Source: Deinococcales bacterium
GTDB lineage: Bacteria > Deinococcota > Deinococci > Deinococcales > JAAFIG01
DNA: 47,829 nt
Assembly (NCBI GenBank): GCA_013298595.1
Contig: JAAFIG010000036.1
Location: 1-47,829, forward strand
Direction: 5' to 3'
Below are positions 1-47,829 of the stretch, one piece after another (positions within the stretch are counted from its first letter, which is position 1; every line of letters begins with the position of its first letter). The position numbers and the translations under genes are program-made. The notes beneath the pieces are model-generated. The model had not been told where the DNA came from and did not search any database. It worked only from the letters and a program-made list of their open reading frames with translations.

Positions 1-1253
1 TTATCGCCACAGCGCACAATTAAACCGCGTTTGCGGGTAGCGGCTTGTAATTTTCCACCAATAGATAAAGCTGGGAAAGCCGTTTTACTGGTTTTATCTT
101 GCACAACTTCAACCAACATCATTAAACCTTTGGCGCGAATATCTCCGACATTGGCATGTTGACGCACCACTTGCATTTGCTCGAGTAATTCTTGACCACG
201 AACTCGAGCATTTTCGGGCAGATTTTCGGACTCGAGAATTTTAATGTTCTCGAGGGCTACAGCGCATGCCACGGGGTGCCCGCTGTAGGTAAAGCCGTGC
301 ATAAACATTCGGTCTGGTTTGATGAGTTCGTTATAAATTGCATCGCTAACACCGACCGCACCAAGTGGGATATAGCCGCTGGTGATGCCTTTAGCAACAC
401 AGAGAATATCGGGTTGAAAGTTGTATGTATCTATGGCAAACATTTTGCCACTGCGTCCAAAGCCTGTAATCACTTCATCGGCAATCAGTAAAATGTTGTG
501 CTGGTCGCAAACACGGCGAATCATTTGCCAATAACCATCAGGCGCAGCACAAACCCCACCTGCCCCTTGGGTTGGTTCGCCAATAAAAGCTGCAATGGTG
601 TCTGCACCTTCTTTAGCAATCGTACTTTGTAATTCATCTTCGAGCATTTTTAAAAAAGCGGGTAACTCGAGCTGATTGGGGTTGTTGCGGTACAAATTTG
701 GGCTGCTGATATGGATAAAACCTTCGGCTGTCGGTCCAAAATCTTTCCAGTAAGCTGCCACACCTGTGGCGGTGGTGGTTAAACCACCAATGCCATGATA
801 AGCGTTGAGTCTCGAGATAATTTTAATTTTATGGCTTTGATTTTGAATTGCCCAGTAATACCGTGCAATTTTAATAGCGCTTTCGTTACTTTCCGAGCCA
901 CCACTGGTAAATTGAAAATGATTGATCTGTCCAGGCACAATCTGAGCCAGTTTTGTAGCTAATTCGATACTGGGTGGCGTGGCTAAACCAAAGAAATTAG
1001 GTGCAAAAGCTAAGGTGTTCATTTGGTCTCGAGCTGCCTCGGCTAAGACACTACGCCCGTGTCCAACATTGATATTCCACAGCCCAGCAAAACCATCAAG
1101 ATATTCTTTACCCGTGGTATCCCAAACTCGAGTGTCATCGCCTTTGCAAAGAATCAATGCCCCAGTTTTTGCATGACGATGCAAATTTGTCACAGGATGC
1201 AAAATGTGTGCTAAATCGAGAGCCAGTAGCCGTTCAGTATCCCAAGAAGTCAT
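1..1253 (-). CDS. Class III (omega/putrescine-type) aminotransferase, C-terminus beyond window
   Basis: PLP-dependent class III transaminase that transfers an amino group from an omega-amino acid or diamine, probably to pyruvate. About 417 residues are present; the C-terminus lies beyond base 1. Visible landmarks are GLWNINVGHGR near the N-terminus (the pattern seen in putrescine/omega-amino acid:pyruvate transaminases), TSGGSESNESAIK, the LLIADEVITGFGR segment with the PLP-ring Asp, and CVAKGITSGY with the Schiff-base Lys. The ATG at 1253 has no Shine-Dalgarno site, but TAGAAT ends 5 nt before it, so a leaderless mRNA is predicted. The family is clear; the exact substrate is not. It is transcribed divergently from the secreted-protein operon at 1368. 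Confidence 0.9.
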   Translation of the reverse strand, partial: MTSWDTERLLALDLAHILHPVTNLHRHAKTGALILCKGDDTRVWDTTGKEYLDGFAGLWNINVGHGRSVLAEAARDQMNTLAFAPNFFGLATPPSIELATKLAQIVPGQINHFQFTSGGSESNESAIKIARYYWAIQNQSHKIKIISRLNAYHGIGGLTTTATGVAAYWKDFGPTAEGFIHISSPNLYRNNPNQLELPAFLKMLEDELQSTIAKEGADTIAAFIGEPTQGAGGVCAAPDGYWQMIRRVCDQHNILLIADEVITGFGRSGKMFAIDTYNFQPDILCVAKGITSGYIPLGAVGVSDAIYNELIKPDRMFMHGFTYSGHPVACAVALENIKILESENLPENARVRGQELLEQMQVVRQHANVGDIRAKGLMMLVEVVQDKTSKTAFPALSIGGKLQAATRKRGLIVRCGD

Positions 1254-1258
1254 AAAGC

Positions 1259-1264
1259 ATTCTA
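1259..1264 (-). promoter_or_regulatory. -10 box TAGAAT for leaderless aminotransferase
   Basis: TAGAAT on the minus strand with a 5-nt gap to the ATG at 1253. It fits the TANNNT-at-the-start-codon pattern seen at many genes here. Confidence 0.5.
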
Positions 1265-1367
1265 CCTCGAGATGAACTGTATTGTTAAAGACAAACTAAA
1301 TGCTTTTGTTGCGGCAACTGTAACGCTTTCCTTGTAAAGTATAGACAGTAATGAAAGGAGTTAGTCA

Positions 1368-2789
1368 ATGAAACCATTTTGGGGAACGATATTGTTTGCA
1401 GCAGTTGGTTTACTAGGGTTTGAGGCTCGAGCACAAAGTGCCTATCCACCATCGAATATTATGAAAGCGGGTAGCCAAATCACACTCGAGTTACGGCAAA
1501 CGTGGACAAGTACCATTAAAGGTAAAGATTCTGATGGCGACTGGACAGGCGATGCCCAAGGTGCAAACGGTACTAAAGCAACTCTTTTTTCGTTTTCACA
1601 AAGTAATGGTTCTTTTGTTTGGCAAGTCTCTTTTCAAGGCGGTAGTGAGTACTGCTTTTTAAATAACTCGAGCAGTGTGACCAGTAATAATGCCAGTGGT
1701 GCTATGTATCAAGGTATACGTTTTAGTAAAACAGGCAATGCAGAAGCTGTTTCTGATAATACTGCTTGCCGAGTGACTTTGAATAATGGTGCTTCACAAC
1801 CGCCTGCACCGCCGCAACCACCTGCGCCACCGCAACCACCAGCACCACCCAGTGGTTTAACCGTTTCCTGGCCGCCAACATTTTCGCTTGGACAAAGTTG
1901 GCGTGTCGAAATTTCAGGTGCAAGTGCTGTCAATGTGGATTTAACCGAAAATGATCGTTTTGGTTCACCAAGTGGTAAGAATGGTGCTCGAGTGGTGAGT
2001 TTGTATTACTCGAGATCACAAGAAACAGCGGTTGTCGAAATTGTTGATGGTCAAGCGACACTGGGTTGTAAGTTCAAAGGTGCTCAGAGTGTTAGTGGTG
2101 CAAGTTTACAAAATGGCACAGTCGTTTCGCGTCCCAATCCGCAATCGCCTTTTCAGAATCAAAACGGTACATGCCGTATCACCTTAACAGCGGATCGTAA
2201 TGCCCAAACTACAACGCAGCAGCCCGTTGTACCAGGGGGCAATACCAATCAACCACCTGCTACGAATCAACCGCCAGCTTTGCCAGGAACAAATCAACCA
2301 CCAGCATTACCAGGTGGCACCAACCAGCCACCAGCTTTGCCAGGGGGTACAAACCAACCACCTGCCTTACCAAGCCAACAAGGAACCCCACCAAACACCA
2401 GTGTCTGGCCCGTCAAACTCGAGATTGGTCAGAGTTGGAAAGCTGATATTCAAACACTTGGTTCGTGGAATGTGACTTTCAAAGTGCTTGACCGCGATGG
2501 CGACCCGAGCGGTGACGCTATACCAAATGGTGCTTTCCCAGCACTTAGCTCGGTGTTTTATTACGCTAAACAAGATAACGATGTCAGGCTCGAGCTATTT
2601 AATAATTCAATCAGTTATATCTGTATTTTTGAACGCAACGAAATTAATGGTTTAACCTTCAACGGTTGGCGTTACGAAGTGACCCCTGACAAGAAATTAC
2701 GCAAAACCAATCAAACCTGCACCATGCAATATTTAGGGCGAGTTAATCTCAGTGCAATTTTTGCACCACTGCTGAATTATGTGCAGTAA
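1368..2789 (+). CDS. Secreted protein with three homologous two-cysteine domains and Pro-rich linkers
   Basis: 473 residues with a signal peptide (about residues 1-23, ending FEARAQS) and three related domains at about 31-140, 165-270 and 345-455. Each domain opens with a G.(S)W-type strand, has D-G-D-x-SG or DSDGDW-like loops, and carries one cysteine in a central strand and one near its end (C-R-I/V-T-L or CTMQYL), suggesting a disulfide in each. The domains are joined by QPPAPP x3 (143-161) and by NQPPALPGGT repeats (about 290-340), typical of flexible extracellular linkers. The Shine-Dalgarno site AAAGGAG lies 9 nt before the ATG. The gene sits 21 nt upstream of the clostripain-like protease and probably shares its transcript. 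I recognise no named family; a binding or scaffold role outside the cell is inference. Confidence 0.8.
   Translation: MKPFWGTILFAAVGLLGFEARAQSAYPPSNIMKAGSQITLELRQTWTSTIKGKDSDGDWTGDAQGANGTKATLFSFSQSNGSFVWQVSFQGGSEYCFLNNSSSVTSNNASGAMYQGIRFSKTGNAEAVSDNTACRVTLNNGASQPPAPPQPPAPPQPPAPPSGLTVSWPPTFSLGQSWRVEISGASAVNVDLTENDRFGSPSGKNGARVVSLYYSRSQETAVVEIVDGQATLGCKFKGAQSVSGASLQNGTVVSRPNPQSPFQNQNGTCRITLTADRNAQTTTQQPVVPGGNTNQPPATNQPPALPGTNQPPALPGGTNQPPALPGGTNQPPALPSQQGTPPNTSVWPVKLEIGQSWKADIQTLGSWNVTFKVLDRDGDPSGDAIPNGAFPALSSVFYYAKQDNDVRLELFNNSISYICIFERNEINGLTFNGWRYEVTPDKKLRKTNQTCTMQYLGRVNLSAIFAPLLNYVQ
1797..1850 (+). repeat. QPPAPP x3 linker-coding repeat
   Basis: Three tandem 18-bp units encoding Gln-Pro-Pro-Ala-Pro-Pro between domains 1 and 2 of the secreted protein. 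Third-position differences between units show the repeat is not a fresh duplication. Confidence 0.85.
2241..2375 (+). repeat. NQPPALPGGT-type linker-coding repeat
   Basis: Four to five imperfect units of about 30 bp encoding Asn-Gln-Pro-Pro-Ala-Leu-Pro-Gly-Gly-Thr between domains 2 and 3. Copy number is likely to vary between strains. Confidence 0.85.
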
Positions 2790-2810
2790 ATCACTCGAGA
2801 AAGGGTATGT

Positions 2811-4781
2811 ATGAAACGAATTCTGCCATTACTGGCAATGCTACTCTCGAGTTTTGCTTTAGCAAACCCGATGCAAAACATTACACATTTATTGCAACCA
2901 GTTGCACCTATCTCGTTAGCAGCTCAAGCACAAGTAGGGCAAGCGTGGACGATCCTGGTGTACTTACATGCCGATCATAATCTGTGGCGTTCAGCACTGA
3001 CAGATTTACTCGAGATGCAGCGTGTTGGCTCAAGTAACAATGTGCGTTTTGTGGTGCAAATAGATGCCCAATCGCCAAAGAGCCGTTATGCAGAAAAACA
3101 ATATCCAAGTTTTGATGGGGCTGTGCGTGGTTTGGTAACAAAAGCCGATGCCACAGATCGCAATGCAGCCATTGCCCAACTCAGCGATGTTGAACGCATT
3201 GCCGAACCCAATAGCGATGACCCTCAAGTGCTTTCCGATTTTATTGCTTGGGGAGTTCGGCGTTACCCAGCCCAGCGTTATGGTCTAATTCTTTGGGATC
3301 ATGGTGGACAATGGGATGGTGGCTTTGGTTTTGACGAGACAACAGTAATCACCACCAGAAAATCTTCGTTTATGCAATCATGGCAGGTTCGCCAAGGTAT
3401 GCAGGCAGGTATGGCACAAGTTGGTTTACAAAAATTTGATTTCTTAGCCCTCGATACTTGTTTGATGGGTGGTTTAGAACTTTTGTTTGAATATGCAGAC
3501 CTGACCAAGTATTACATTGCCGACCCAGAAATAGATTATGGAGCAGGTTGGGATTACACTGCTTCTTTTGGTTTGTTGCGCGATAACCCAAGTATCAGTG
3601 CTAGAGATTTTGCAATTCAAGAAGTCAATCATTGGGATGCCCATCATCAACGCAGTGCCTCGGATCGTTCTGATCGTGCCCATACCGCTTATGATGTGCA
3701 ACAACTAACCAGTTTACGCAATGCGGTCAATACATTTGTGCAAACAGCTTCGCAAAGTGCAGATCGGGCAGCATTACTCAGTGCTCGTTCCAAAGTTGTC
3801 GAATACCAATTCGACAGCGAAAGCCCCAACGACCCGTTGCCTTATATAGACATTGGGCATTACGGGCAATTAGTAGCCCAACTAACTCGAGATAATGCAC
3901 TTGCCCAAGCAGGGAACACTCTCGCAAATGCTGTGCGTCAAGTTGTGTTAGCTAAATCCTTAGGCTCGAGTAAATTGGCTGCCCTTGGGTTAAGTGTTTG
4001 GTTACCGAACAGCCCAAACGATAAACCCGATACTGCTACTTTAGCCAATTACAACACACAGTTACAATTAGCCAAAACAGTGCAGTGGAATCAATTTATT
4101 AACTTGTGGTACGGCAATGTCACTACCACAGTGCAACCTGTGGATGTGCGAGTCACCCAAACAATCAATTTGCTCGAGCCAACAGACCGAGAACCAGCCG
4201 TGATCGGTTTTAGTGTTTCAGGCAATGCTAATTTGATTTATGGCGAACTTGGCGAAGTTGGTGAACGCAATAGCTTTAAGGTGTATGGGCAACTCTATTT
4301 ACAACCAGGAGGCGCTAACCAATACGAGTACAACTGGGATGGTCGTTGGTACGAAATTCAGGGTGCTAATAACAGCAGCGATTTTTTTAATGGCTTCTTT
4401 CAACGTCCCAACGACAGCACCATGTATGCCAATGCCAGTTACACCCCTGTTGGACAAAGCCAAGGGTACGCTGTGATTGTGATTGCAGATTTAACCACCA
4501 GTAAAATTATTTCGGTGCTGGATAACTCGAGTATTGCTCCTCGAGAAATTACTTTGCAACCAGGTGGGGTGCTGCGGTTTCAACTACTACAAAAAGACCA
4601 ATTAACTGATGAAACTACACTGGTGCCAACAGGTCGAGTAGTGACTATTCCCAGTAATGGCATCGCAGGGATGCAACTACAACGCAACCGAATGCCACTG
4701 GGCGAATACATCCTGATTTTTGGTGCTCGAGACCAAGCTGGTAATATCCGCACTGGTTTTGCACCTGTACAAATTCGTTAA
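2811..4781 (+). CDS. Secreted clostripain-family (C11) cysteine peptidase
   Basis: 656 residues. A signal peptide (about 1-18, ending FALANP) is followed by a C11 clostripain catalytic domain at about 45-410. Visible catalytic elements are the WDHGG motif with His164 and DTCLMGG with Cys217, plus the family N-terminal strand WTILVYLHADHN. The remaining C-terminal 240 residues are beta-rich and may be substrate-binding or autoprocessed. C11 peptidases cleave after basic residues and usually mature by internal cleavage; the site was not identified here. It lies 21 nt downstream of the three-domain secreted protein, so the two are probably co-expressed, and that partner could be a substrate, inhibitor or targeting factor. 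A strong hairpin follows the stop. Confidence 0.9.
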   Translation: MKRILPLLAMLLSSFALANPMQNITHLLQPVAPISLAAQAQVGQAWTILVYLHADHNLWRSALTDLLEMQRVGSSNNVRFVVQIDAQSPKSRYAEKQYPSFDGAVRGLVTKADATDRNAAIAQLSDVERIAEPNSDDPQVLSDFIAWGVRRYPAQRYGLILWDHGGQWDGGFGFDETTVITTRKSSFMQSWQVRQGMQAGMAQVGLQKFDFLALDTCLMGGLELLFEYADLTKYYIADPEIDYGAGWDYTASFGLLRDNPSISARDFAIQEVNHWDAHHQRSASDRSDRAHTAYDVQQLTSLRNAVNTFVQTASQSADRAALLSARSKVVEYQFDSESPNDPLPYIDIGHYGQLVAQLTRDNALAQAGNTLANAVRQVVLAKSLGSSKLAALGLSVWLPNSPNDKPDTATLANYNTQLQLAKTVQWNQFINLWYGNVTTTVQPVDVRVTQTINLLEPTDREPAVIGFSVSGNANLIYGELGEVGERNSFKVYGQLYLQPGGANQYEYNWDGRWYEIQGANNSSDFFNGFFQRPNDSTMYANASYTPVGQSQGYAVIVIADLTTSKIISVLDNSSIAPREITLQPGGVLRFQLLQKDQLTDETTLVPTGRVVTIPSNGIAGMQLQRNRMPLGEYILIFGARDQAGNIRTGFAPVQIR

Positions 4782-4795
4782 GCAGCAACATGATT

Positions 4796-4828
4796 AGCAG
4801 ATGCTCGAAATTCGAGCATCTGCTTTTA
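4796..4828 (+). terminator. Rho-independent terminator after clostripain gene
   Basis: Perfect 14-bp inverted repeat AGCAGATGCTCGAA / TTCGAGCATCTGCT followed by TTTTAT. The T-tract also forms part of the TATAAT box of the next gene, so terminator and promoter abut. Confidence 0.85.
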
Positions 4829-4832
4829 TAAT
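4827..4832 (+). promoter_or_regulatory. -10 box TATAAT for leaderless gene at 4839
   Basis: Consensus TATAAT with exactly 6 nt to the GTG at 4839. Transcription would start at or next to the start codon. Confidence 0.6.
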
Positions 4833-4838
4833 GCCAAT

Positions 4839-5891
4839 GTGAACACAGAATTTATCACTGAATTCCTCGAGATTTTCCACGACCCCGAATCGAGCCAAGA
4901 TTTTCTCGAGCAAGCTGCTAATCAGTTTTACCAAACTGCTAGTGCGACATCGTATATTGAAGGACAACAAGTACTTTCTAAAGTTGCACCGAGTATTGAA
5001 ACTTTATCAGACCCCGTCCGAGCCAGTTATGTAGCACTTTTATGTGGTGCCTTACTCGAGCAAGGATTTGACCCCGACCCTGTGATTAAACCATTACTCA
5101 GTCGGTTGCAAACAATGACTGCTGATGTGCAAACGTGGTTACAAATTTGTCTCGAGCACAACCCGAGCATCCGAGGCGAAGAAGGTATCGAATACGATTT
5201 ACTCGAGGAAACTGAAAGTAGTATGGCAGAAACGCAGCCTGCTTTAGCCGCGCAAAACACGGCTTTTGATACGTTGTGGCGACCAGCTGTCACACTGTGC
5301 TCGCTGAGTAAAGATGCCCGATTGACCGCACAACCATTACGTACACAACTCGAGTTATTGCAAGATTTTACTGTCGGCGGTGGGTGGCTCAGTAAAATCT
5401 TGGCTGTACTCGATGATGAACCAATACTGGTACTCGAGCCAAGTACTAAATTGGGTTTTGCAGCTCGGATCAGTGGCATCAGTGATAATTTTCAGTTACA
5501 CACGCTACTGATGGATATTTTCCCAAACCCAACAGGGCAGCCTCGAGTCACACAAAATGCAGCTGATACCGCTTGGGCACGAGGGGCACAAGCAGGGGAG
5601 GGGAGCGTACTTGGCTATTGGAATTTATACGATTGGCGGGCAGCCAGTGCAGTACAAGCCCAACAATTGGCAACCGAAATCAACCGAGATTACTGGGTTT
5701 GGGGTGAAGGTATCCCATCCGATATTCCTGTCCGTAACGGGTACCGAATCATTCTACTGGGCGAACCAGCCTATCAACGATCATGGGCTAACTCGAGAAT
5801 GTTTGGGCATTTAAGACCAGAATTTACCGACTTAACAGTGCTTAGTACCGAAGACGTGCAAGACTGGCTCGAGCAACTTTCTGCTGTCTAA
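4839..5891 (+). CDS. Hypothetical cytoplasmic protein, 350 aa
   Basis: I do not recognise this family. The protein is acidic, has no signal peptide or membrane segment, and is helical in its N-terminal half (about 1-115). The C-terminal part (about 140-350) is richer in Trp and mixed alpha/beta, with YWVWGEGIPSD and a closing WANSRMFGHLRPEFTDLTVL. CTCGAG is dense (for example 4866, 4905, 5055), as in old resident genes of the window. The start is GTG with TATAAT 6 nt upstream and no Shine-Dalgarno site. It is monocistronic, bounded by a terminator upstream and an inverted-repeat element downstream. Confidence 0.75.
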   Translation: MNTEFITEFLEIFHDPESSQDFLEQAANQFYQTASATSYIEGQQVLSKVAPSIETLSDPVRASYVALLCGALLEQGFDPDPVIKPLLSRLQTMTADVQTWLQICLEHNPSIRGEEGIEYDLLEETESSMAETQPALAAQNTAFDTLWRPAVTLCSLSKDARLTAQPLRTQLELLQDFTVGGGWLSKILAVLDDEPILVLEPSTKLGFAARISGISDNFQLHTLLMDIFPNPTGQPRVTQNAADTAWARGAQAGEGSVLGYWNLYDWRAASAVQAQQLATEINRDYWVWGEGIPSDIPVRNGYRIILLGEPAYQRSWANSRMFGHLRPEFTDLTVLSTEDVQDWLEQLSAV

Positions 5892-5911
5892 GTTGAAGAA
5901 GTTATTCAATG

Positions 5912-6094
5912 AATAGACCTCGGGCGATGGTAGCCAAATTCAATCGCGGCACGGGAGGAGACTTCTTGACCATATACGTGTACCTGACTGGCATGGTTGC
6001 AAGCCCCGCTCCTACAAAAAACACCGTTCCTGTAGACCCTTGTGGTCGCCCTGCCTCGAAAACGCCATGAAATGACTTTCGCCCGAGGTCTATT
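5912..6094. mobile_element. MITE-like or palindromic intergenic element with 16-bp terminal inverted repeats
   Basis: AATAGACCTCGGGCGA at 5912-5927 is the exact reverse complement of 6079-6094, bounding a 183-bp stretch with no convincing gene and no CTCGAG, in contrast to its surroundings. Inside are further GC-rich short palindromic segments (around 5999-6012 and 6040-6055). A 21-bp near-copy of the right end (19/21) occurs alone at 10340-10360. No clear target-site duplication is visible. A non-autonomous transposable element or a REP/ERIC-like intergenic repeat are the two options. Confidence 0.65.
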
Positions 6095-6124
6095 AAAGCT
6101 GTTTTTCGGGCTTGACAAGCAGCG

Positions 6125-6130
6125 TAGACT
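6125..6130 (+). promoter_or_regulatory. -10 box TAGACT for leaderless rlmI-like gene
   Basis: TAGACT ends 6 nt before the ATG at 6137. A nearby TTGACA (6112) is only 7 nt upstream and so cannot be its -35. Confidence 0.6.
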
Positions 6131-6136
6131 AAGCAC

Positions 6137-7276: not shown

Positions 7277-7279
7277 AAA

Positions 7280-7304: not shown

Positions 7305-7328
7305 TAAACCTCACGTCAAGCTTTTACC

Positions 7329-8342: not shown

Positions 8343-8442
8343 TGAGTCTCGCTCTTTGCTGCGCGCCGGAAAACAATTGTTTTCGTACTGACGACCACGC
8401 AAACCTCGAGAATCTCGAGGTGGCTACTCCCTCAACAACTCG
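8343..8442 (-). promoter_or_regulatory. yybP-ykoY manganese riboswitch upstream of terC
   Basis: On the minus strand the leader reads GAGGGAGTAGCC, a hairpin built on ACCTCGAGA/TCTCGAGGT, then GTGGTCGTCAGTACGAAAA, a GAAAAC/GTTTTC stem, and finally AGCGAGACTC. The GGGAGTAGC start and GCGAGAC end are the signature of the yybP-ykoY aptamer, and TGAG/CTCA closes the basal stem. Such RNAs sense Mn2+. Here the aptamer ends about 5 nt before the AAGGGG ribosome-binding site of terC, so translational control is plausible. The P2-like stem incorporates two CTCGAG motifs. Confidence 0.85.
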
Positions 8443-8605: not shown

Positions 8606-9940
8606 TCAGTCAGCTTTGCTTTTGGTTGTCACACTTAAACCGTTTTTTGGACGCATGGTCAGGCTAGCATAAATTTCGACTTTGTAATCTGCAGCTTTGG
8701 CAAAATCCACCTTTGCCAAAATCGTTGAAAGTAAAATCATGCCTTCCATCTCGGAGAATGTATTGCCAATGCAAACGCGAGGTCCTGCACTAAAAGGAAA
8801 ATAGGCGTAATCTGGTAAGCTTTTTTCAAACCCTTCGATCCAGCGCTCAGGTTTGAAAGCTTCTGGGTCTGGGAAAAATTCTGCATTGCGATGCGTCACA
8901 TACTGCGAGAGCATGATGTTTTGTCCTTTAGGAATGCTATACTCACCGATTTGTATATCCTCGAGGCTGGTGCGCCCAATACTCCAAGCTGGTGGGTATA
9001 AACGCAAGGTTTCTTGCCAAATTTGTTTTAATAAAGGAAATTTTCCAATATCCTCAAGATGACAACCATCTTTACCTAAAATACTGCGTGCTTCGGCAGA
9101 GGCTTTGGCTAAAATATCAGGATGCTTGAGTAGTAAATGAAAAGTCCAAGCTAAGGCATTAGCCGTGGTTTCATGACCTGCGAGTAACAAGGTTAAAGCC
9201 TCATCTCGAAGTTGAGCATCGGTCATGGCACTACCATCTTCATCTCGAGCGGCAACCAGCATCGAAAGTAAACTAAATTCTGATGGGTTCTGACGCTCAT
9301 TTTGAATCATCTCAAAAACAATACTATCTAATTCCCCTATGGCTTTTTTTAAGCGCTGATGTCCGGGTAATGGAATGCTCAGCGGTAACGGAATTGGTTG
9401 TGCCATCTGAGCACGATTTGCCAGTAATGCCTCCTCGAGCGCTTGCCCAATACGGTTACTCTGACCACGCAAATCGGCATTGAACAAGGTCTTTGCCACA
9501 ATCTCGAGCGTGAGTGTATTTAAAAACTCAAATAAATCTAGCTCGGTCGGTATTTGCTCGAGTGAACGCAACGTAAAAGTACGCATTGTTTCGGCATAGG
9601 CTCGAATTTTCTCACGATGAAAAGCTGGTTGTGATAAACGGCGTTGACGTAACCAAAAATCCCCATCACTCGAGAGTAAACCATTGCCAATAAGAGCATT
9701 CAAAGCTGGAAAACCACGGTACGGTTTTTTGAATTTCTTGGCTTGGTCACGTAACACAAGTGCCACTAAACTCGGACGCGTAATCAGCGTCATGCCTCGA
9801 GGACCAAAGTTCATATTGACCACATCGCCATGTTCTTTGGTGATTTGTAATAAATAACCAGATGGGTCTTTAGCAAAACTCAGCACATGCCCAATCAGCG
9901 GTAAACCCTTTGGCATTGGTGGAACTCGAGAAGTTATCAT
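8606..9940 (-). CDS. Cytochrome P450
   Basis: 444 residues, a soluble bacterial P450. Visible motifs are the I-helix oxygen-activation LLLAGHETTANAL, the K-helix ETLRLYPP (ExxR), the PERW segment (FKPERWIEGFEK) and the heme loop FPFSAGPRVCIGNTF with thiolate Cys390. The early segment NALIGNGLLSSDGDFWLRQRRLSQPAFHREK is typical of P450s near CYP120/CYP287, which include carotenoid and retinoid hydroxylases, but no carotenoid genes lie here, so the substrate is unknown. It needs ferredoxin and reductase partners encoded elsewhere. The gene is rich in CTCGAG (eight copies). Confidence 0.93.
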   Translation of the reverse strand: MITSRVPPMPKGLPLIGHVLSFAKDPSGYLLQITKEHGDVVNMNFGPRGMTLITRPSLVALVLRDQAKKFKKPYRGFPALNALIGNGLLSSDGDFWLRQRRLSQPAFHREKIRAYAETMRTFTLRSLEQIPTELDLFEFLNTLTLEIVAKTLFNADLRGQSNRIGQALEEALLANRAQMAQPIPLPLSIPLPGHQRLKKAIGELDSIVFEMIQNERQNPSEFSLLSMLVAARDEDGSAMTDAQLRDEALTLLLAGHETTANALAWTFHLLLKHPDILAKASAEARSILGKDGCHLEDIGKFPLLKQIWQETLRLYPPAWSIGRTSLEDIQIGEYSIPKGQNIMLSQYVTHRNAEFFPDPEAFKPERWIEGFEKSLPDYAYFPFSAGPRVCIGNTFSEMEGMILLSTILAKVDFAKAADYKVEIYASLTMRPKNGLSVTTKSKAD

Positions 9941-14989: not shown

Positions 14990-15420
14990 CGGTTGGAAAG
15001 GGGCACGGTCGCGCTTGGTGCAAACCAAGTGAGGAAAGTCCGGGCATCACAGGGCAGAATGCCAGCTAACGGCTGGGCGGCGAACGAACCACAAGACAAT
15101 GACACGATTGTTTTGCAGGCGTGAAGCCGACGGAAAGTGCAACAGAAAATAAACCGCTCAGTGCCTCGCAAGAGACACCAGTAAGGTTGAAACGGTGGTG
15201 TAAGAGACCACCAGCGCGGCTCGAGAGAATCGCGGCTCGGCAAACCCCATTTGATGCAAGGCTCGAACGCACCCAAGAGGGAAACCTCGAGACATGACCC
15301 GTATCTGACGAGGTGCAAAGACAGCCGCTAGAGGTCAGCAGCGATGTTGGCTCGAGACAGATGACCGTGACGTGCGGGAGACCGCATAGGACAGAACCCG
15401 GCTTACACCCTTTCCAACGT
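14990..15420 (+). ncRNA. rnpB: RNase P RNA, bacterial type A
   Basis: Catalytic RNA of RNase P, which trims tRNA 5' leaders. The conserved block GAGGAAAGTCCGGGC (15031-) with CACAGGGCAG, then GCCAGCTAACGGCTGGGCGGC, the mid-gene GGAAAGTGCAACAGAAA, and the 3' ACAGAACCCGGCTTA block are all present. The ends pair as P1 (GGTTGGAAAGGG / CCCTTTCCAAC). At about 430 nt it is longer than many type A RNAs. Three CTCGAG copies (15220, 15286, 15350) lie in its variable helices. Confidence 0.97.
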
Positions 15421-15537
15421 ATTTATTTATTCGTGTCGTTTCACCTCAATAAACTCGAGGGCGCTGTGCTTTGTTGTCAAAAGTACGGTAAAAATGTGAC
15501 ATTTTTGTCATTTGTACTTTAGTTCAATGGAAACTCC

Positions 15538-31051: not shown

Positions 31052-32035
31052 TCACAACCCAAACCTTTGAATCCCTGCCACAAACATCGAAACCCGTAAT
31101 TCATAAATCATTCGCTCGAGAACTTCCATAACAGCTTCTGGGCTTTTGGTGGCTGGCTCGAGGAGCGGCATAGCGGTGGCACAGACAGTGGCACCTTTGC
31201 TTAGGGCTTTAGCGATGTCTAAGCCGCTGCGGATACCACCTGATGCCATCAGAGGCATATTGGGTAGGGTTGTGTGGCATTGCTCGAGGGCTTCGAGGGT
31301 GGGGATGCCAATTTCGCAGATATCAGGGTGTAATAATTTGCCATGATGAGCAAAATCTTCGACTTTTGCCCAGGATGTCCCACCTGCTCCTGCGACATCG
31401 AGCGCAGCAAAGCCAACGTTTTGTACAGCTCGAGCAGTGGCTGCACTTAATCCGTGTCCGACTTCTTTGAGCATGACTGGATAACCAACTTGTGGCACGA
31501 TTTGCTCGAGGCTTGGGATAAGGTTAGCAAAGTCGGTATCACCACCAATTTGTAAAGCTTCTTGGAGCGGGTTGGTGTGAAAGGCAATGGCATCTGCGTT
31601 GATCAGTTCAATAGCGGCTTTAGCTTGGATATGGTTATAGCCTTTTTTAAATTGGGCAACACCAATATTGCCAATAATTAATGTTGTTGGTGCGTATTGC
31701 CGCACTGCAAAACTGGCTCGGGCAGATTCGTTTTCAATCATCACACGTTGCGAACCAAGCATGAGTCCAAGCCCAAGGGTTTCGGCGGCAATGGCAAGAT
31801 TTTTGTTAATTGTGGCAGCTAAATCTGCGCCACCCGTCATTGCACCAATCAAGATAGGGGCTTTGAGGTGTTTACCAAGAAAAGTTGTCTCGAGTTGGAT
31901 ATCTTCAAGATTGATTTCGGGCAAAGCATTGTATGCCCAAGGCATCTTTTCAAAACCAGTGGTTTTGCTGGTGTAATGCACTGGGTACTCGAGACAAACT
32001 TGGATGTGTTTGAGTTTACGGGCTGAGATGGTCAT
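31052..32035 (-). CDS. fni: Type 2 isopentenyl-diphosphate delta-isomerase
   Basis: 327 residues. It interconverts IPP and DMAPP with FMN and NAD(P)H. It has the N-terminal RKLKHIQVCLE, PILIGAMTGGA, LGLGLMLGSQRVMIE, the NADALAIHTNPLQE-like INADAIAFHTNPLQEALQ, LKEVGHGLSAATA, LDVAGAGGTSWAKVE and ASGGIRSGLDIAKAL, all diagnostic of FMN-dependent type 2 enzymes. TAGACT lies 6 nt before the ATG at 32035, with no Shine-Dalgarno site. It probably serves carotenoid, quinone and wall-lipid carrier synthesis. Confidence 0.95.
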   Translation of the reverse strand: MTISARKLKHIQVCLEYPVHYTSKTTGFEKMPWAYNALPEINLEDIQLETTFLGKHLKAPILIGAMTGGADLAATINKNLAIAAETLGLGLMLGSQRVMIENESARASFAVRQYAPTTLIIGNIGVAQFKKGYNHIQAKAAIELINADAIAFHTNPLQEALQIGGDTDFANLIPSLEQIVPQVGYPVMLKEVGHGLSAATARAVQNVGFAALDVAGAGGTSWAKVEDFAHHGKLLHPDICEIGIPTLEALEQCHTTLPNMPLMASGGIRSGLDIAKALSKGATVCATAMPLLEPATKSPEAVMEVLERMIYELRVSMFVAGIQRFGL

Positions 32036-38231: not shown

Positions 38232-38232
38232 T

Positions 38233-41083: not shown

Positions 41084-41090
41084 GCCCAGC

Positions 41091-41096
41091 AGTGTA
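41091..41096 (-). promoter_or_regulatory. -10 box TACACT for leaderless yhhQ-like gene
   Basis: TACACT on the minus strand with 7 nt to the GTG at 41083; the box overlaps the 5' neighbourhood of a CTCGAG copy. Confidence 0.5.
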
Positions 41097-41124
41097 CTCG
41101 AGAAAAATGTGAAGTACGTCCCAA

Positions 41125-42108: not shown

Positions 42109-42148
42109 TGAAAACTCCTAGACGGCTTTTACCTTGTATCTTACCTTC

Positions 42149-43201
42149 TCACTTGTCCACTATTACAGTCAAAGGATCAAGTGCCACTTCATTCTCGATG
42201 ACATTTGCTTTCAATTTCAAATCCTCAAGAAAATCTTGGAGTACAACACTGGCGCGTTGCCATTTCCAATCCATCGAAACGTATTTACCACTGTTGAGAA
42301 TGGCTACACTGTATCTCGAGCCAAGGCGTTTGCTCAGGTCTTCACGCAAGAGACGTTGGGCACTGATTGGGTTGCTGGTGTCGTAACGCCCAATGATGTG
42401 CAGCACAGGAAATGTTGTTTTCTCGAGAGCAACATATTCTTGATCTAAGGTGTCCAGTGGTTCAAATAAGCTTTGCATGAGTGCATCACGGAACTCAAAA
42501 GGTTGGCGTTTGAGTGCGTATTGCTCGAGGAATAAATTCGCTAAGCCACTTTGAATAATGCCATTACCAAAGTTTTTACGCCAGAACTCGAGACTGGCTT
42601 CTGGGGTGGCATAAACGCCGTTGTACAACTGATTGGCAATAAATTTTGCCACACCAAGCTGCACGCCATTCCAAGGTCTTGGTGCGTATGGCGAAACCAG
42701 AATTAAGCCCTCGAGCCATTCTGGGTTTTCAGCCGCGATTTGTAAAGCAAATAATGCCCCGATACCTTGCCCTAATAAAACCACTTTGCGTCCAGCTCGA
42801 GTTTTTTCGATTGCTACTCTGGCATCATTTTCGTAATCTTTGAGGGTCGCATTGCTGGCAGGTTGTGCACCTAGCATATTGCGGTAAGCCACAGCATGGC
42901 GTTCAAAACCAGTTAAGGATTGCATCCAAGGGGCAAAACTCCAAGCGCCAGTGCCAAGGTCAGGCAACATGATCAGTACTCGAGATTGACCAGCCGCACT
43001 GTACACGCCTTGCTTGAGTTGATAAGTACTCATTGGTGCAAAAACAACACTTTCTTTATAAGCCCTAGCCGCCCGACGTTCGATAATATTGGGTTCTTGA
43101 ACTGGTGGTTGCAAAGATAAAACTTGAACCAACACCCACCAAATCCCAGCCACAAAGGCTAAGAAAACAGTAAACGAAATAACTTTCCAAGATGGCTTCA
43201 C
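42149..43201 (-). CDS. Membrane-anchored alpha/beta-hydrolase-fold protein lacking nucleophile
   Basis: 350 residues with one N-terminal membrane helix (about 8-30) and an external alpha/beta hydrolase fold (about 70-330). The nucleophile elbow reads VVLLGQGIGALFAL: GQGIG replaces GxSxG, so residue 146 is Gly instead of Ser. The position of the catalytic His is Lys306 (NSGKYVSMDWK), while the acid Asp274 (GRYDTSNP) remains. The protein therefore looks non-catalytic, perhaps binding or structural. GTG start with TACACT 7 nt upstream. It lies 18 nt downstream of the YcaQ-like gene. Confidence 0.8.
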   Translation of the reverse strand: MKPSWKVISFTVFLAFVAGIWWVLVQVLSLQPPVQEPNIIERRAARAYKESVVFAPMSTYQLKQGVYSAAGQSRVLIMLPDLGTGAWSFAPWMQSLTGFERHAVAYRNMLGAQPASNATLKDYENDARVAIEKTRAGRKVVLLGQGIGALFALQIAAENPEWLEGLILVSPYAPRPWNGVQLGVAKFIANQLYNGVYATPEASLEFWRKNFGNGIIQSGLANLFLEQYALKRQPFEFRDALMQSLFEPLDTLDQEYVALEKTTFPVLHIIGRYDTSNPISAQRLLREDLSKRLGSRYSVAILNSGKYVSMDWKWQRASVVLQDFLEDLKLKANVIENEVALDPLTVIVDK

Positions 43202-43208
43202 AACCTCG

Positions 43209-43214
43209 AGTGTA
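43209..43214 (-). promoter_or_regulatory. -10 box TACACT for gene at 43201
   Basis: TACACT on the minus strand with 7 nt to the GTG; the box shares CT with a CTCGAG copy. Confidence 0.45.
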
Positions 43215-43219
43215 CGTTT

Positions 43220-44284
43220 TTACAAAGAGTTTGATGCCCCGTTTAAAAAAACCTGCATTCGCTCGAGTTCAGTGGCAAGTTCGCGTTTGAACTGAGCACT
43301 TTTGGGTTGGCGAACATAACCGATGTCTGCATTAAAACCTTTTTTTGTTTCGATGTTTGCCCAACCAATAATTTCGGTGCCGTACAGCATTGGTAGTGCA
43401 TAATAGCCGCGAATGCGTTTTTCGGGTTTGGTGTACGCTTCAAAGCGGTACTCCCAGCCGTGTAACAATTCAAATCTACGCCGATCCCAAACAATAGGGT
43501 CAAAAGGTGCCAGCAGTGTCACACCGTCTCGAGGTTCGGATTGAGGTAATTCGTGTGGCATCACCCATTTTGTGCCATCTATGAAAATTGTCTCGAGCTG
43601 CGAAGCAAGTTTTCTGGTTTCAGGTTTGATACTGGGTGCGCCCAGACCACTAAACGAACACAATTGCAATAAACTTGGTAATGGCAAAGGTGCGTAATTC
43701 CTGAGGATTAATTCGAGAATGCCCTTGGCTCGAGCGGCTGTTGACAGTGGCTTATGGTTATGGTTTGCCATTTCGTAAACCTTAATGCCTTTGTCACGCC
43801 GTGCAACCCGTAATAAACCTTTGTAATGCAGTGCCTCCAGTGCTCTGGTGCTGGCATTAGAAGTGCCGCCCCAATAATTACCAACACGGGTTTTTCCAAA
43901 GTGTTGCTCTAAGGTTTTTGGATGACTTGCCCCATGTTCACGGATGTACTCGAGCACAGCTGGCACAATTTTTGGTGCATCCAATTCAATTTGCATTGGG
44001 GTTTTACGAACTCGAGGGTGGAACAAAGCTGTTTTGGTTTGGTGGATAAATCCGTAATTGACAAAGTAATCTTCGTTTACCTCGAGGTTTGGGTACTGTG
44101 TTTCAAGATTGGTGGCAACATAATTCTCGACCCGAGGACGCAAAATTAAATCTTGTGCCCTTGCTGGAGCACGAATTGGGTCGGCTTGGATAAATCCTAG
44201 CGTTGTCAGAGTTTGCTCGAGGCTTGAGGGCTTGCCTAGGGTTTGGATGACAGCAAGGCAGCGTAGGTCTTTGAGCGTAGTCAC
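43220..44284 (-). CDS. YcaQ-like winged-helix protein (crosslink-repair glycosylase family)
   Basis: 354 residues matching the HTH_42/YcaQ family. LGFIQADPIRAPARAQDLILRPRV at the N-terminus, YFVNYGFIHQT, three winged-helix repeats, and VTLLAPFDPIVWDRRRFELLHGWEYRFEAY near the C-terminus are typical. Relatives unhook interstrand crosslinks and excise alkylated bases. The family's catalytic QxD/QxQ stretch corresponds here to FIQADP, so activity is plausible but unproven. The start is GTG at 44284 with TAAAAT 6 nt upstream. It is the first of a two-gene set with the non-catalytic hydrolase. Confidence 0.88.
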   Translation of the reverse strand: MTTLKDLRCLAVIQTLGKPSSLEQTLTTLGFIQADPIRAPARAQDLILRPRVENYVATNLETQYPNLEVNEDYFVNYGFIHQTKTALFHPRVRKTPMQIELDAPKIVPAVLEYIREHGASHPKTLEQHFGKTRVGNYWGGTSNASTRALEALHYKGLLRVARRDKGIKVYEMANHNHKPLSTAARAKGILELILRNYAPLPLPSLLQLCSFSGLGAPSIKPETRKLASQLETIFIDGTKWVMPHELPQSEPRDGVTLLAPFDPIVWDRRRFELLHGWEYRFEAYTKPEKRIRGYYALPMLYGTEIIGWANIETKKGFNADIGYVRQPKSAQFKRELATELERMQVFLNGASNSL

Positions 44285-44290
44285 GATATT

Positions 44291-44296
44291 ATTTTA
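44291..44296 (-). promoter_or_regulatory. -10 box TAAAAT for leaderless YcaQ-like gene
   Basis: TAAAAT on the minus strand with 6 nt to the GTG at 44284. Confidence 0.5.
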
Positions 44297-44310
44297 CGTC
44301 AAAAACAAAA

Positions 44311-44922
44311 TCAATGCAATTGCTGCTCGAGTAAATCCTGAATTTCTGCCACACCATAAGGGTCTTCACCACGTTCAAAAGCCGCCAGACTTTGTAGCAA
44401 CATGGCTTTACGCATGGTTGGATTGGCTGCAAGTTCGCCTAAACCCCGAAAAGCACAGGCTTCGGCAATGGCATCACCCGATAACTGCGCTTGCTCGAGT
44501 GCCACACCAAGCCAAGTGCGGGCTTCCTCGAGCTGACCGAGTTTGCCACAAATCATACCTTGTTCGTAGGCATTCGCACTGACAGCTAAAGGTGGATTCT
44601 CGAGTTGCAAAATAATTTTCGCTTCAGCTGCAAAAATTTCTAAAGCAATAACAAAATTTTCTGCCATGCGCTCAACCATACCCAATTGATGCAATGCCAC
44701 ATATTCAGCTGCTAAATTACCAGTAGACTGCGCTTCCAAACGCAACAAACCGCATTCATCTCGAGCTTCATCAAACCTGCCTGTGCGAGCAAAGACATAG
44801 ACCAAACCCATGCGAGCATCAGCAGCCAAAACAGGTTCGAGTCTGGCTTTTCTAAATAACTGCTCGGCTCGAGCAAACTCTTCAAGTTCAAACGCTTGCC
44901 AAGCCATTGCTAACGGATTCAT
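44311..44922 (-). CDS. TPR-repeat protein, 203 aa
   Basis: All-helical protein with about five tetratricopeptide-like units: AWQAFELEEFARAEQLFRKA, ADARMGLVYVFARTGRFDEAR, EYVALHQLGMVERMAENF, AYEQGMICGKLGQLEEARTWLG, ACAFRGLGELAANPTMRKAM. No signal peptide or catalytic motif. The ATG overlaps the stop of the site-2-protease-fold gene by 4 nt (ATGA), so the two are translationally coupled and the TPR protein probably binds that membrane protein or its client. The role is inferred from coupling only. Confidence 0.85.
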   Translation of the reverse strand: MNPLAMAWQAFELEEFARAEQLFRKARLEPVLAADARMGLVYVFARTGRFDEARDECGLLRLEAQSTGNLAAEYVALHQLGMVERMAENFVIALEIFAAEAKIILQLENPPLAVSANAYEQGMICGKLGQLEEARTWLGVALEQAQLSGDAIAEACAFRGLGELAANPTMRKAMLLQSLAAFERGEDPYGVAEIQDLLEQQLH

Positions 44923-45584
44923 GGAATTGGCAAACCAAACACTTGTAAAATGCCGTACATTAAGGTGTAGATTGGTGTTAGCACTAAGCGGAGAATTCCT
45001 GTAACGCTTAGTACAAAGAAAATCAACATAAAACTAAAAGGTAAACCTGCCATCCAACGCTCGAGTTTAGAAAGTTGTTCACGCACACTGGGTGAGCCAA
45101 CTGCAAATAAGGCTCGAGCACCGTCGAGTGGAGGAATTGGAAATAAGTACATCACGGCGGCATAGGTTAACACCTGAAAGCCAAGATATAACCCACCAAG
45201 CAGTGATGCAAAACTGTCATTGCCTTGGGTTATGACTAGTAAAATTGAGGTGACAAGCAGGATAATAAAAGCAAAAAGCATCATTGAAATTGGACCAATC
45301 AGCCATACCAAAGCCTCTTTACTCTGCTGACGACTATACAAACGCACTGGAATTGAACTTGGAATGGCAAAGCCAAAAATTGCCATCCAAATCCACGAAA
45401 AAGAATCTAAATGCAGCATAGGGTTCCCTGTGGTGGTAAAACCACGCTGTTTCGCAGTTGGGTCGCCAAAGGCATTGGCGAGTAGTGCCTGACAGACATT
45501 ATGCAGTACAAAGCCAAAAGCCAATAAAAACAAGGCAATCAAGTACTGTAACGGATCCGAACCAAGATATTGGATAAAGTACAT
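44919..45584 (-). CDS. Site-2-protease-fold membrane protein with degraded HExxH
   Basis: 221 residues with five to six membrane segments. GDPTAKQRGFTTTGNPMLHLDSF and FPIPPLDGARAL align to the site-2 protease (M50B) pattern, in which HExxH is followed by LGDPTxxxxGxxTLNP and ends at NPxxDG. Here the metal motif reads His28-Asn-Val-Cys-Gln32 (LHNVCQ): the catalytic Glu and second zinc His are replaced, so zinc binding and proteolysis are unlikely. The conserved Asp of PLDG remains. The gene is coupled to a TPR protein. An inactive membrane scaffold or chaperone is the best guess. Confidence 0.88.
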   Translation of the reverse strand: MYFIQYLGSDPLQYLIALFLLAFGFVLHNVCQALLANAFGDPTAKQRGFTTTGNPMLHLDSFSWIWMAIFGFAIPSSIPVRLYSRQQSKEALVWLIGPISMMLFAFIILLVTSILLVITQGNDSFASLLGGLYLGFQVLTYAAVMYLFPIPPLDGARALFAVGSPSVREQLSKLERWMAGLPFSFMLIFFVLSVTGILRLVLTPIYTLMYGILQVFGLPIP

Positions 45585-45662
45585 TTCCCTTAAAATCTAG
45601 CACGAACCCTGCTTATACTCGGGGTGAACCCACACGATTGGCATTTTTTCAGCAAATATGTG

Positions 45663-45668
45663 TACGAT
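45663..45668 (+). promoter_or_regulatory. -10 box TACGAT for leaderless gene at 45675
   Basis: TACGAT with 6 nt to the GTG at 45675, preceded by TTGGCA at 45638 (19-nt spacer). An alternative start at 45624 has TATACT only 4 nt upstream. Confidence 0.45.
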
Positions 45669-45674
45669 AGCAAT

Positions 45675-46376
45675 GTGAATTCGCTCGAACTCCTCGGCAC
45701 GATTCAAGCGATGGACTTGGATTTAGACAAGTTACGACTTGACGCAGATAGTATTCCTGGCGAACTTAAAGCCGCACGGGACGATAAAACTCGTCTTTTG
45801 CTTGAGAGTGAGAAGCTCCGCCAAGAACACCACGCAGTACGACGAAAACTCAGTCAAGCCGAACTCGAACTTGCTTCGCTTGGTGAGCAGTTAAAACGTG
45901 CAGAACACGATCAGCAGCACTCGAGTAGCGCTAAAGAACAAGGGCAGTATGCGTCTCGAGTTGTCTCTTTGCGAGACGAAATTAATGATTTAACCGATGA
46001 TTCCTTGCCTTTAACCGAGAAATTAGATGTCTTAAACGCCCAAATCGAAGATATTGGTGTGCTTTTAGATGAACTCGAGCCTAAACTCGTGCATCTTGAA
46101 AGCCTTGACGAAGACCGAATCAAGGATTTGCAAGCTCAGTATCAAAACAGGCAAAATGAGCGTGATACCTTGGCGGCTGGCGTAGACGAAAAAGTTTTAC
46201 GAGACTACGATACTGTCAGAAAAGCCAAAAAAGGGATTGGCTTTGTCACAGTTGTGGCTGGCAAATGTGGTGGTTGCAAAGTGCAACTGACACCTAATTT
46301 ATTGCAACGGGTCAAAGCAGGACAATTCCCTGTGAAATGTCAATCGTGTGGGCGTATCCTTGCGCCATCCACCTAA
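45675..46376 (+). CDS. Coiled-coil protein with C4 zinc ribbon (DUF164 family)
   Basis: 233 residues from the GTG at 45675; the family begins with a line such as LLGTIQAMDLDLDKLR, which follows here directly, whereas the alternative GTG at 45624 would add 17 residues. A long antiparallel coiled coil (about 10-185) is followed by a C4 zinc ribbon, CGGC ... CQSCG. Homologues are widespread and structural studies suggest nucleic-acid interaction. It lies upstream of a GNAT and two membrane/TPR genes on the same strand. The function is not known. Confidence 0.88.
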   Translation: MNSLELLGTIQAMDLDLDKLRLDADSIPGELKAARDDKTRLLLESEKLRQEHHAVRRKLSQAELELASLGEQLKRAEHDQQHSSSAKEQGQYASRVVSLRDEINDLTDDSLPLTEKLDVLNAQIEDIGVLLDELEPKLVHLESLDEDRIKDLQAQYQNRQNERDTLAAGVDEKVLRDYDTVRKAKKGIGFVTVVAGKCGGCKVQLTPNLLQRVKAGQFPVKCQSCGRILAPST

Positions 46377-46397
46377 AACGCGGTACTTTGACAGCCT

Positions 46398-46859
46398 ATG
46401 ACCATTGATGCTACCCTCGAGATTCGTCGCGCCAACAAGCGTGATCTCGAGGATTGGTTGCAGTTGTGTTTGGCTTGGCAAGGAGCGCCAGCCACTGCTA
46501 ACCCAGTATTACTGCGTCAATTGCTCAAGCAAACACTGTCTGATGATGATAGTACAGTCTATTTGGCTTTTTCGGATGGTTCGTTACTTGGTTTTGCCCA
46601 TATTACATTTCAAGTGCGGGCAGTGCGGTTGGGTTGGCGTTGTACCATCGAAGAATTACATGTCGAACAACCCGATACTGGCATCGAACAACAGTTTTTG
46701 AATGCCATTGTTCATGAATGTCGTGAACGTGGCGATGTGATTGCATTGTACTTACTGACTCAACCTGATCTCGAGCCACGCCAATTTGAATTTTACGCTT
46801 CGCTTGGTTTTCGTGAACGCGGACGTGAAGTGCTGATTTGGACTGGAGCATTGTTATGA
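46398..46859 (+). CDS. GNAT-family N-acetyltransferase
   Basis: 153 residues with GNAT core strands: LEIRRANKRDLEDWLQL, VYLAFSDGSLLGFAHITFQ, CTIEELHVEQPDTGIEQQFLNAIVHECRERG and YASLGFRERGREVLIW. The acetyl-CoA loop (EQPDTGIEQQ) departs from the usual R/Q-x-x-G-x-G/A, so activity should be considered uncertain. TACTTT lies 8 nt before the ATG and there is no Shine-Dalgarno site. The stop overlaps the next start (ATGA). Confidence 0.85.
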   Translation: MTIDATLEIRRANKRDLEDWLQLCLAWQGAPATANPVLLRQLLKQTLSDDDSTVYLAFSDGSLLGFAHITFQVRAVRLGWRCTIEELHVEQPDTGIEQQFLNAIVHECRERGDVIALYLLTQPDLEPRQFEFYASLGFRERGREVLIWTGALL

Positions 46860-47275
46860 ATTACGCTGCTTTACTGGCGGTGTTGGTGGCACTTGGGTTA
46901 GCGTTTCCTTTACTGGTACGGCTTGCCAATGCCAATGGTGTTCCACAATCTGTCAGTATTGTTGCAGGTGTGCTTGGTGCTATTTTTGCCTTGGCTTGGT
47001 ACTTAATTCGTCAGCGTGTCAATAATTTTCGTGCCATTGCAGCTCGAGTTGAACTGATTAAAAAAAATATTCTCGAACAACCCGAAAACAGCGAAAAGTA
47101 CTTTGATCAAAATGAGCATCTTGGTGATTTATTGATTAAAATCAATCGTCGCCGAGAGGCGCTTGGTGTGTTTGAGCAATTTTTAATGCTTGAGCAAAAA
47201 ACAGGCAAAGATTTACCCGCGCTCGAGCAAAAAATTATTCAATTAAAAGCCCATTTGGACGAACAAGAGTTGTAA
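46856..47275 (+). CDS. Membrane protein with helical tail, 139 aa
   Basis: Two membrane segments (about 3-25 and 35-55) with a cytoplasmic helical tail (about 60-139; YFDQNEHLGDLLIKINRRREALGVFEQFLMLEQK resembles a single TPR-like hairpin). Translation is coupled to the GNAT gene by a 4-nt overlap. I recognise no family. The next gene is also TPR-like and exported, so the set may work at the membrane. Confidence 0.8.
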   Translation: MNYAALLAVLVALGLAFPLLVRLANANGVPQSVSIVAGVLGAIFALAWYLIRQRVNNFRAIAARVELIKKNILEQPENSEKYFDQNEHLGDLLIKINRRREALGVFEQFLMLEQKTGKDLPALEQKIIQLKAHLDEQEL

Positions 47276-47278
47276 AAT
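47273..47278 (+). promoter_or_regulatory. -10-like TAAAAT before gene at 47284
   Basis: TAAAAT with 5 nt to the ATG, overlapping the previous stop codon. An internal promoter or simple coupling are both possible. Confidence 0.3.
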
Positions 47279-47283
47279 AAATT

Positions 47284-47829
47284 ATGCGTTGGTTTATTTT
47301 TATTCTTTTAAGCAGTGCTGTCTTGGCTGCCGACCTGTCGGATGCTCGGGTTTTATATGTCAAAGGCGAATTTCTAGCCGCTGCTAAAATCGCTGCTGCT
47401 TTAGAAACTTCCGAAGGATTTTCTTTTGCGGCTCGAGCCATGTCCGAACATGCCAACGAGCAACCTCGAGCCAACCGTGACGAGTTATACAGTTTGTGTG
47501 AAAAATATGCTCGTAAAGCTGTACAACTCAATAGCAAAAATGCCGATGGTTACTTTGAAATTGCTGCTTCGGTAGGGCAACTTGCCTCCTTGCGCGATGT
47601 TAGTTATGCCATTACCAATGGCGTAGCCACCCAAGTCAAAGATAATCTCGAGAAAGCCATTGAACTCAATCCGCGTCATTGGTTTGCGATATTGGTACTT
47701 GGGCGTTGGAATGCCGAAATGCACGCTCGAGGTGTGGCGTGGTTGTATGGTGCCAGTGCAGAACGGGCAAATAGTTTACTTGAGCAAAGTTTAGCCATTG
47801 CCCCTAAACGCATTTTAGTCCGAGTCGAA
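47284..47829 (+). CDS. Exported TPR-containing protein, C-terminus beyond window
   Basis: 182 residues visible, open at the window end. A signal peptide (MRWFIFILLSSAVLAAD) precedes TPR-like helical hairpins: ARVLYVKGEFLAAAKIAAALE, LCEKYARKAVQLNSKNADGYFEIAASVGQ, DNLEKAIELNPRHWFAILVLGRWN, AERANSLLEQSLAIAPKRI. The pattern resembles exported bacterial relatives of RMD1/regulator-of-microtubule-dynamics TPR proteins. It follows the membrane protein by 8 nt. A binding role in the envelope is inferred. Confidence 0.8.
   Translation, partial: MRWFIFILLSSAVLAADLSDARVLYVKGEFLAAAKIAAALETSEGFSFAARAMSEHANEQPRANRDELYSLCEKYARKAVQLNSKNADGYFEIAASVGQLASLRDVSYAITNGVATQVKDNLEKAIELNPRHWFAILVLGRWNAEMHARGVAWLYGASAERANSLLEQSLAIAPKRILVRVE

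Follow-up and report, generated by a model that had tools for sequence, protein, structure and literature searches.

CTCGAG as a highly iterated palindrome in a lineage of Deinococcales bacteria

Highly iterated palindromes (HIPs) have been described from cyanobacteria, in which GGCGCC, GGGATCCC, RCCGGY and GCSGC occur as alternates of HIP1 (GCGATCGC) (PMC4390886). Their cause and function have been debated mainly from these bacteria, where a nearly constant cognate methyltransferase confounds the interpretation. Here we analyse CTCGAG in a stretch of 47,829 bp from a Deinococcales bacterium (contig JAAFIG010000036.1, called the window below) and in related genomes. The window is contig 30 of the source genome, G000, which comprises 4.58 Mb in 68 contigs. 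A first-pass annotation of the window had reported a massive excess of CTCGAG and had named HIP1 as the only well-known parallel, which overlooked the cyanobacterial alternates. We find that CTCGAG is a highly iterated palindrome of this lineage, which represents a second, independent and denser HIP case. Within the open-licence literature, we found no earlier account of CTCGAG in such a role for this lineage.

Abundance of CTCGAG and its independence of reading frame

The window contains 293 copies of CTCGAG (6.13/kb, with a mean spacing of about 163 bp), where 9.1 are expected from a zero-order model at the measured G+C content of 44.8% (previously given as about 43%). The second-ranked palindromic hexamer has 38 copies. 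The over-representation is stronger than first stated, and the local counts, with nine sites before 1.3 kb and those of the P450 and idi open reading frames (Table 1), were right. Enrichment confined to the window is ruled out, as the whole source genome carries 27,159 copies (5.9/kb, one per about 165 bp), about 31-fold above the zero-order expectation; GAGCTC, the reversed word, is present in 15 copies genome-wide. A high-order Markov model masks the excess and "expects" 247 copies in the window, because CTCGAG itself inflates its internal 5-mers. When the motif was masked, the expectation was 26.7-36.4 copies against 2,722 observed in a 448-kb sample of the source genome (the window plus L081-L100).

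The analysis of frames and codons covered 1.25 Mb of the source genome, a partial and non-random 27% sample with crude open reading frame (ORF) calls. The density of CTCGAG in this sample is 5.85/kb inside ORFs and 6.01/kb outside, and frames 0, 1 and 2 contain 3771, 1630 and 1346 copies, respectively, whereas codon frequencies predict 131, 108 and 34. This corresponds to a 29-, 15- and 39-fold excess and confirms the earlier observation that the word occurs in all three frames and in non-coding DNA. Leu-Glu dipeptides (n = 5,649) are written as CTCGAG in 67% of cases, about half of the CTC and GAG codons fall within the word, and Leu-Glu itself is 2.38-fold over-represented, with a value of 0.98 for Glu-Leu. 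The congener of the source genome, G001, reproduces all these results on frames, density and dipeptides, and the same behaviour was seen in smaller samples of G002, G003, G012 and G016. A preference for Leu-Glu combined with the use of CTC and GAG codons would agree with frame 0 being the commonest frame, and with its dominance in G008, a relative described below. For the motif-rich genomes we reject such an explanation because of the excesses in frames 1 and 2 and the equal density in non-coding DNA, and we consider its probability negligible. In each sampled stretch, whatever the frame or coding status, CTCGAG is kept at the DNA level at a density of about 6 per kb, with enough force to steer the choice of synonymous codons and of amino acids. 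The sampled proteome, in which a DNA word has more than doubled one dipeptide, is a strong example of DNA-level forces setting protein sequence.

Distribution, conservation and spacing of the sites

Six genomes from four genera and two families (f1 and f2) are motif-rich, with about 6-8 CTCGAG per kb: G000, G001, G002, G003, G012 and G016. Family f1, with four genomes from three genera, has 26,600-28,200 copies per genome of 4.2-4.6 Mb. In family f2, the two genomes of genus g11 have 21,868 copies in 3.5 Mb (G012) and 14,690 in 1.9 Mb (G016), G008 has 13,552 in 3.8 Mb, and the sister genome G004, with 683 in 2.3 Mb, shows no excess. Among 111 genomes of the phylum, none outside f1 and f2 came near 6 per kb, the maximum being about 3 per kb on counts alone. 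In samples of G008 (L116 and L119), frame 0 dominates the excess (134 vs 10 and 16), non-coding DNA has 1.1 copies per kb, and the over-representation of Leu-Glu persists at 1.88-fold. G008 thus looks like a relic, in which sites without protection would have decayed. The six motif-rich genomes, G008 and G004 together offer natural contrasts for finding the responsible gene.

The CTCGAG-rich genomes also strongly avoid many other palindromes. In the 448-kb sample, GGCC occurs 12 times (1,151 expected), TTCGAA once (130 expected) and CCGG 102 times (0.09 of expectation), and GAGCTC, CCGCGG and CTTAAG are absent; GAGCTC is nearly missing from each of the six motif-rich genomes. In G008 and G004, such avoidance is much weaker or lacking. 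Avoidance is the pattern of type II restriction sites; CTCGAG shows the opposite, an enrichment amid the depletion of many other palindromes.

Orthologues of G000 and G001 were compared in 171 pairs (175 kb, with 70% nucleotide identity overall and 43% at fourfold sites). CTCGAG is kept at 625 of the 1,070 aligned sites (58%), compared with 17% for other hexamers. No other frequent hexamer is as well conserved between the two genomes, and the conservation that the first-pass annotation had proposed examining across relatives is present in this comparison. One-mismatch fates make up 6%, compared with about 30% in controls. At positions with Leu-Glu in both genomes, G001 carries CTCGAG in 83% of the pairs that have it in G000 and in 68% of those that do not, and turnover towards CTCGAG is therefore fast. 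The log odds of choosing CTCGAG, relative to context-matched Leu and Glu codons, are 4.98 in G000 and 4.62 in G001. As amino acids, Leu-Glu pairs are conserved alike with or without CTCGAG (0.77 and 0.75), and Ser-Ser/Arg pairs are conserved at 0.68 with the word and 0.47 without it. CTCGAG is retained or regenerated between genomes with nearly saturated synonymous sites, and it is very probably a DNA-level, actively maintained palindrome of the whole lineage.

The sites also depend on one another. In G000, Leu-Glu is written as CTCGAG with a probability of 0.75-0.79 if 75-200 bp separate it from the nearest other site, and of only 0.27-0.34 if the separation is 9-18 bp; the effect is weaker in G001. 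Frames 1 and 2 show the same dependence, with a step near 18 bp. Since the probability falls near other sites, the sites are not valued independently of their neighbours. Permutation of CTCGAG-bearing Leu-Glu pairs within genes gave z = -9.2 for gaps below 12 bp (z to -10) and an excess of gaps of 50-200 bp. Inverted CTCGAG pairs at 9-17 nt reach 0.39 and 0.57 of expectation; as other inverted 6-mers reach 0.76-0.90, little of the short-range exclusion can be put down to mRNA hairpins being avoided in general. Direct repeats are in excess at these distances. In non-coding DNA, with terminator-like hairpins set aside, sites 9-18 bp apart give ratios of 0.85 and 0.89, which leaves steric exclusion on the DNA unsupported. 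We therefore assign the exclusion mainly to coding DNA and claim no DNA footprint.

These data bear on the possibility that a mutational or conversion bias without any function acts on each site autonomously. Such a bias would affect all frames and non-coding DNA alike, as is seen here. However, it does not account for a probability that depends on the distance to the next site in the same gene, and at the strength estimated from Leu-Glu it should make free non-coding DNA denser than coding DNA, while the observed densities are equal. To our knowledge, no mutational process produces a 6-bp palindrome, which we also count against it. We regard a site-autonomous bias as very unlikely, and the simple mutational bias that the first-pass annotation had listed among the possible causes becomes less likely given the distance dependence and the lack of a CpG-deamination excess (see below).

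Paired CTCGAG hairpins occur in terminator-like stems. Between about 35 and 81 kb of contig 12 of the source genome (L092 and L263-L266), intergenic hairpins recur in which two CTCGAG enclose 8-base loops of nearly the same sequence (CCTTCAAT and its complement); several of these hairpins lie downstream of tandem lipoprotein-like genes.

The features of the window are collected in Table 1. CTCGAG extends even into structured RNA: the RNase P RNA contains three copies, and the tRNA-Ser none, so the earlier statement that RNA genes carry the word holds for the former only. The RNase P RNA has a good class A family score and departs from the consensus near 15286, with CTCGAG inside an inserted stretch. 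Elsewhere in the source genome, a D12 methyltransferase and a HerA-like ATPase are encoded on an island that is low in G+C and poor in CTCGAG (contig 2, 17.8-22.4 kb; L082 and L272), probably a recently acquired defence operon. On contig 3 (8.0-12.2 kb; L083), a gene for an MBL-fold protein with an LmuA/RTasMBL-like match adjoins one for an E1-E2-JAB fusion in another CTCGAG-poor, low-G+C island, and this pair may form a ubiquitin-like defence operon. The minus strand of contig 4 contains one uninterrupted reading frame of 6,337 codons (53005-72015) with 58 CTCGAG. Among the matches listed in a search of viral contigs for dense CTCGAG, most were of high G+C content.

Table 1. Features of the window that carry or consist of CTCGAG
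Feature	Position	Strand	Remark
CTCGAG, 293 copies	1..47829	no strand	listed positions; density matches genome-wide value
Non-coding pair CTCGAGAATCTCGAG	8405..8419		9 bp apart; tight arrangement rare within genes
Cytochrome P450 gene, eight CTCGAG	8606..9940	-	P450 by Pfam
RNase P class A RNA, CTCGAG at 15220, 15286, 15351	14993..15421	+	
Type 2 isopentenyl-diphosphate isomerase (idi) gene, seven CTCGAG	31052..32035	-	idi by NCBIfam

What may maintain the word

There is about an even chance, in our judgement, that CTCGAG is maintained by a putative intracellular protein that recognises it and acts through selection or repair. Selection, or a selection-like repair bias, with a scaled strength of about 4-5 would hold each site, and the force would be exerted by this palindrome-recognising protein. 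Candidates for it are DNA-binding proteins and adenine methyltransferases that are coupled to repair or replication. Close neighbours within genes may be partly redundant or mutually costly, in which case the value of a site would depend on the distance to the next. In support we cite the equal density inside and outside ORFs, the frame excesses, the 2.38-fold excess of Leu-Glu, the retention of 58% vs 17%, the log odds of 4.98 and 4.62, the spacing, the sharpness of the word (see below) and the lack of a flanking motif. Several points weigh against maintenance by such a protein. No CTCGAG-recognising protein has been identified, and sequence alone cannot separate selection from biased repair. 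Non-coding DNA shows no clear short-range exclusion, which argues against a simple protein footprint and makes a cost at the mRNA level possible. In addition, ComEC is present in the motif-rich genomes, except for G016 (58% complete), and undetected in the motif-less G004, a pattern that fits an uptake signal too.

As an uptake signal, CTCGAG would mark self DNA for natural transformation and spread by molecular drive. ComEC was detected in G000-G003, G012 and G008 and was not found in G004 (97% complete) or G016. Uptake sequences are evenly spaced, conserved, frequent as inverted pairs in terminators and scarce in newly acquired genes (PMC2397512, PMC1939737), and the CTCGAG pairs in terminator-like stems and the CTCGAG-poor D12/HerA operon match this description. 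However, CTCGAG is a six-base palindrome without a flanking consensus (no extended motif flanks it in non-coding DNA), it is about six times denser than the Neisseria uptake sequences (1 per 1.1-1.5 kb), and it is much sharper against one-mismatch variants than a Pasteurellaceae uptake sequence. Moreover, G008 has ComEC yet only a relic-like motif, and the exclusion acts over tens of bp, far below the length of transforming fragments. We therefore consider an uptake signal distinctly unlikely.

Another possibility is the methylation-linked mismatch-repair ratchet that Elhai proposed for the cyanobacterial HIPs, in which the word is marked by a methyltransferase and repair is biased towards keeping the mutations that create it. 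It is the closest precedent, as a putative cognate methyltransferase exists in every HIP-rich cyanobacterial genome (PMC4390886), and CTCGAG-specific orphan methyltransferases are known elsewhere, in Nocardia (PMC4752239) and, as a 5-methylcytosine (m5C) enzyme, in Halorubrum (PMC8112702). However, our survey of five Pfam families of methyltransferases in eight genomes, with grouping at 40% identity, found no orthologue group that spans the motif-rich genomes; G000 has several methyltransferases, none of them conserved across these genomes. The solitary CTCGAG methyltransferase suggested by the first-pass annotation is thus unsupported as a lineage-wide explanation. The only m5C enzyme detected in G000 (contig 15; L121:1441-2571), with orthologues in G001 (L123) and G012 (L122), scores best as an orphan methyltransferase in PADLOC. 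Its top-listed plasmid match (58% identity) overlaps a gene for an HpaII-family endonuclease, and CCGG is depleted as described above; the enzyme therefore most likely accounts for CCGG and was rejected as the CTCGAG orphan enzyme.

The products of C1-to-T and C3-to-T transitions are about equal (914 and 759 in G000; 401 and 420 in G001), and therefore there is no sign of methylcytosine deamination at CpG. CTTGAG/CTCAAG and TTCGAG/CTCGAA are not depleted. Vsr was found in none of the motif-rich genomes, the sole Vsr being that of G008. Repair by Vsr or of m5C deamination was rejected on the lack of Vsr and of a CpG-deamination excess. MutS was detected in five motif-rich genomes (G000, G002, G003, G012 and G016) and G008 and not in the motif-less G004 (97% complete), which would fit the ratchet; it was also undetected in the motif-rich G001, a fragmented assembly, which would not. 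Such correlations of MutS or ComEC, which depend on one genome among incomplete assemblies, are suggestive only. Elhai's model further requires GmeC, which is missing from CTCGAG, and predicts saturation at around one site per 1,000 nt, compared with one per 165 here. With no shared methyltransferase found in the families surveyed, an m5C enzyme that looks CCGG-specific and no CpG-deamination excess, we think that the ratchet is unlikely.

Going beyond maintenance by a recognising protein, we tentatively propose that CTCGAG could be the address of a dense chromosome-wide system, either an architectural protein or a self-marking modification, that works on a scale of about 160 bp, arose independently of the cyanobacterial HIPs and reshapes the proteome. 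If this is true, HIPs would have evolved convergently in the genomes of restriction-rich bacteria and would not be a cyanobacterial curiosity.

Comparison with known systems

In very-short-patch repair by Dcm/Vsr, one methylated word becomes enriched through repair. The motif-rich genomes differ from it in lacking Vsr and in that the deaminated words are not depleted. The orphan methyltransferase of Nocardia uses the same hexamer as a mark without a restriction enzyme, but its sites cluster near dnaA (PMC4752239), whereas here they are found genome-wide and no cognate enzyme has been identified. The DNA uptake sequences (DUS) of Neisseria and the uptake signal sequences (USS) of the Pasteurellaceae resemble CTCGAG in being dense, conserved, more evenly spaced than expected by chance and present in terminators. 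Unlike CTCGAG, they are non-palindromic, longer (9-12 bp), tolerant of mismatches and present at about 1 per kb (PMC1939737, PMC2397512). The ratio of excess one-mismatch words to excess perfect words is 0.15 in G000 and 0.05 in G001. A table in PMC1939737 allows the same ratio to be computed for HIP1 in Synechocystis (about 0.3) and for a Pasteurellaceae uptake sequence (about 2). CTCGAG is therefore a sharp word, as are HIPs.

HIP1 and its alternates (GGCGCC, GGGATCCC, TCGATCGA, RCCGGY and GCSGC) are, like CTCGAG, G+C-rich palindromes that occur genome-wide, tens of times above chance, and are sporadically lost in relatives (PMC4390886). CTCGAG differs in being a new 6-bp word with a Deinococcales host, where HIPs have so far been described in cyanobacteria. 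It occurs at about 6 per kb, compared with roughly 0.3-2.7 per kb for HIPs (RCCGGY excepted), and shows short-range exclusion within genes, and no conserved cognate methyltransferase was found for it in the five families surveyed in eight genomes. The first-pass description as a HIP-like genome motif is supported, as the word is far above chance across the genome, in all frames and in non-coding DNA beyond what codon usage explains, and is conserved and maintained against decay. By the tests made, CTCGAG is a HIP in everything except its taxon and a demonstrated methyltransferase.
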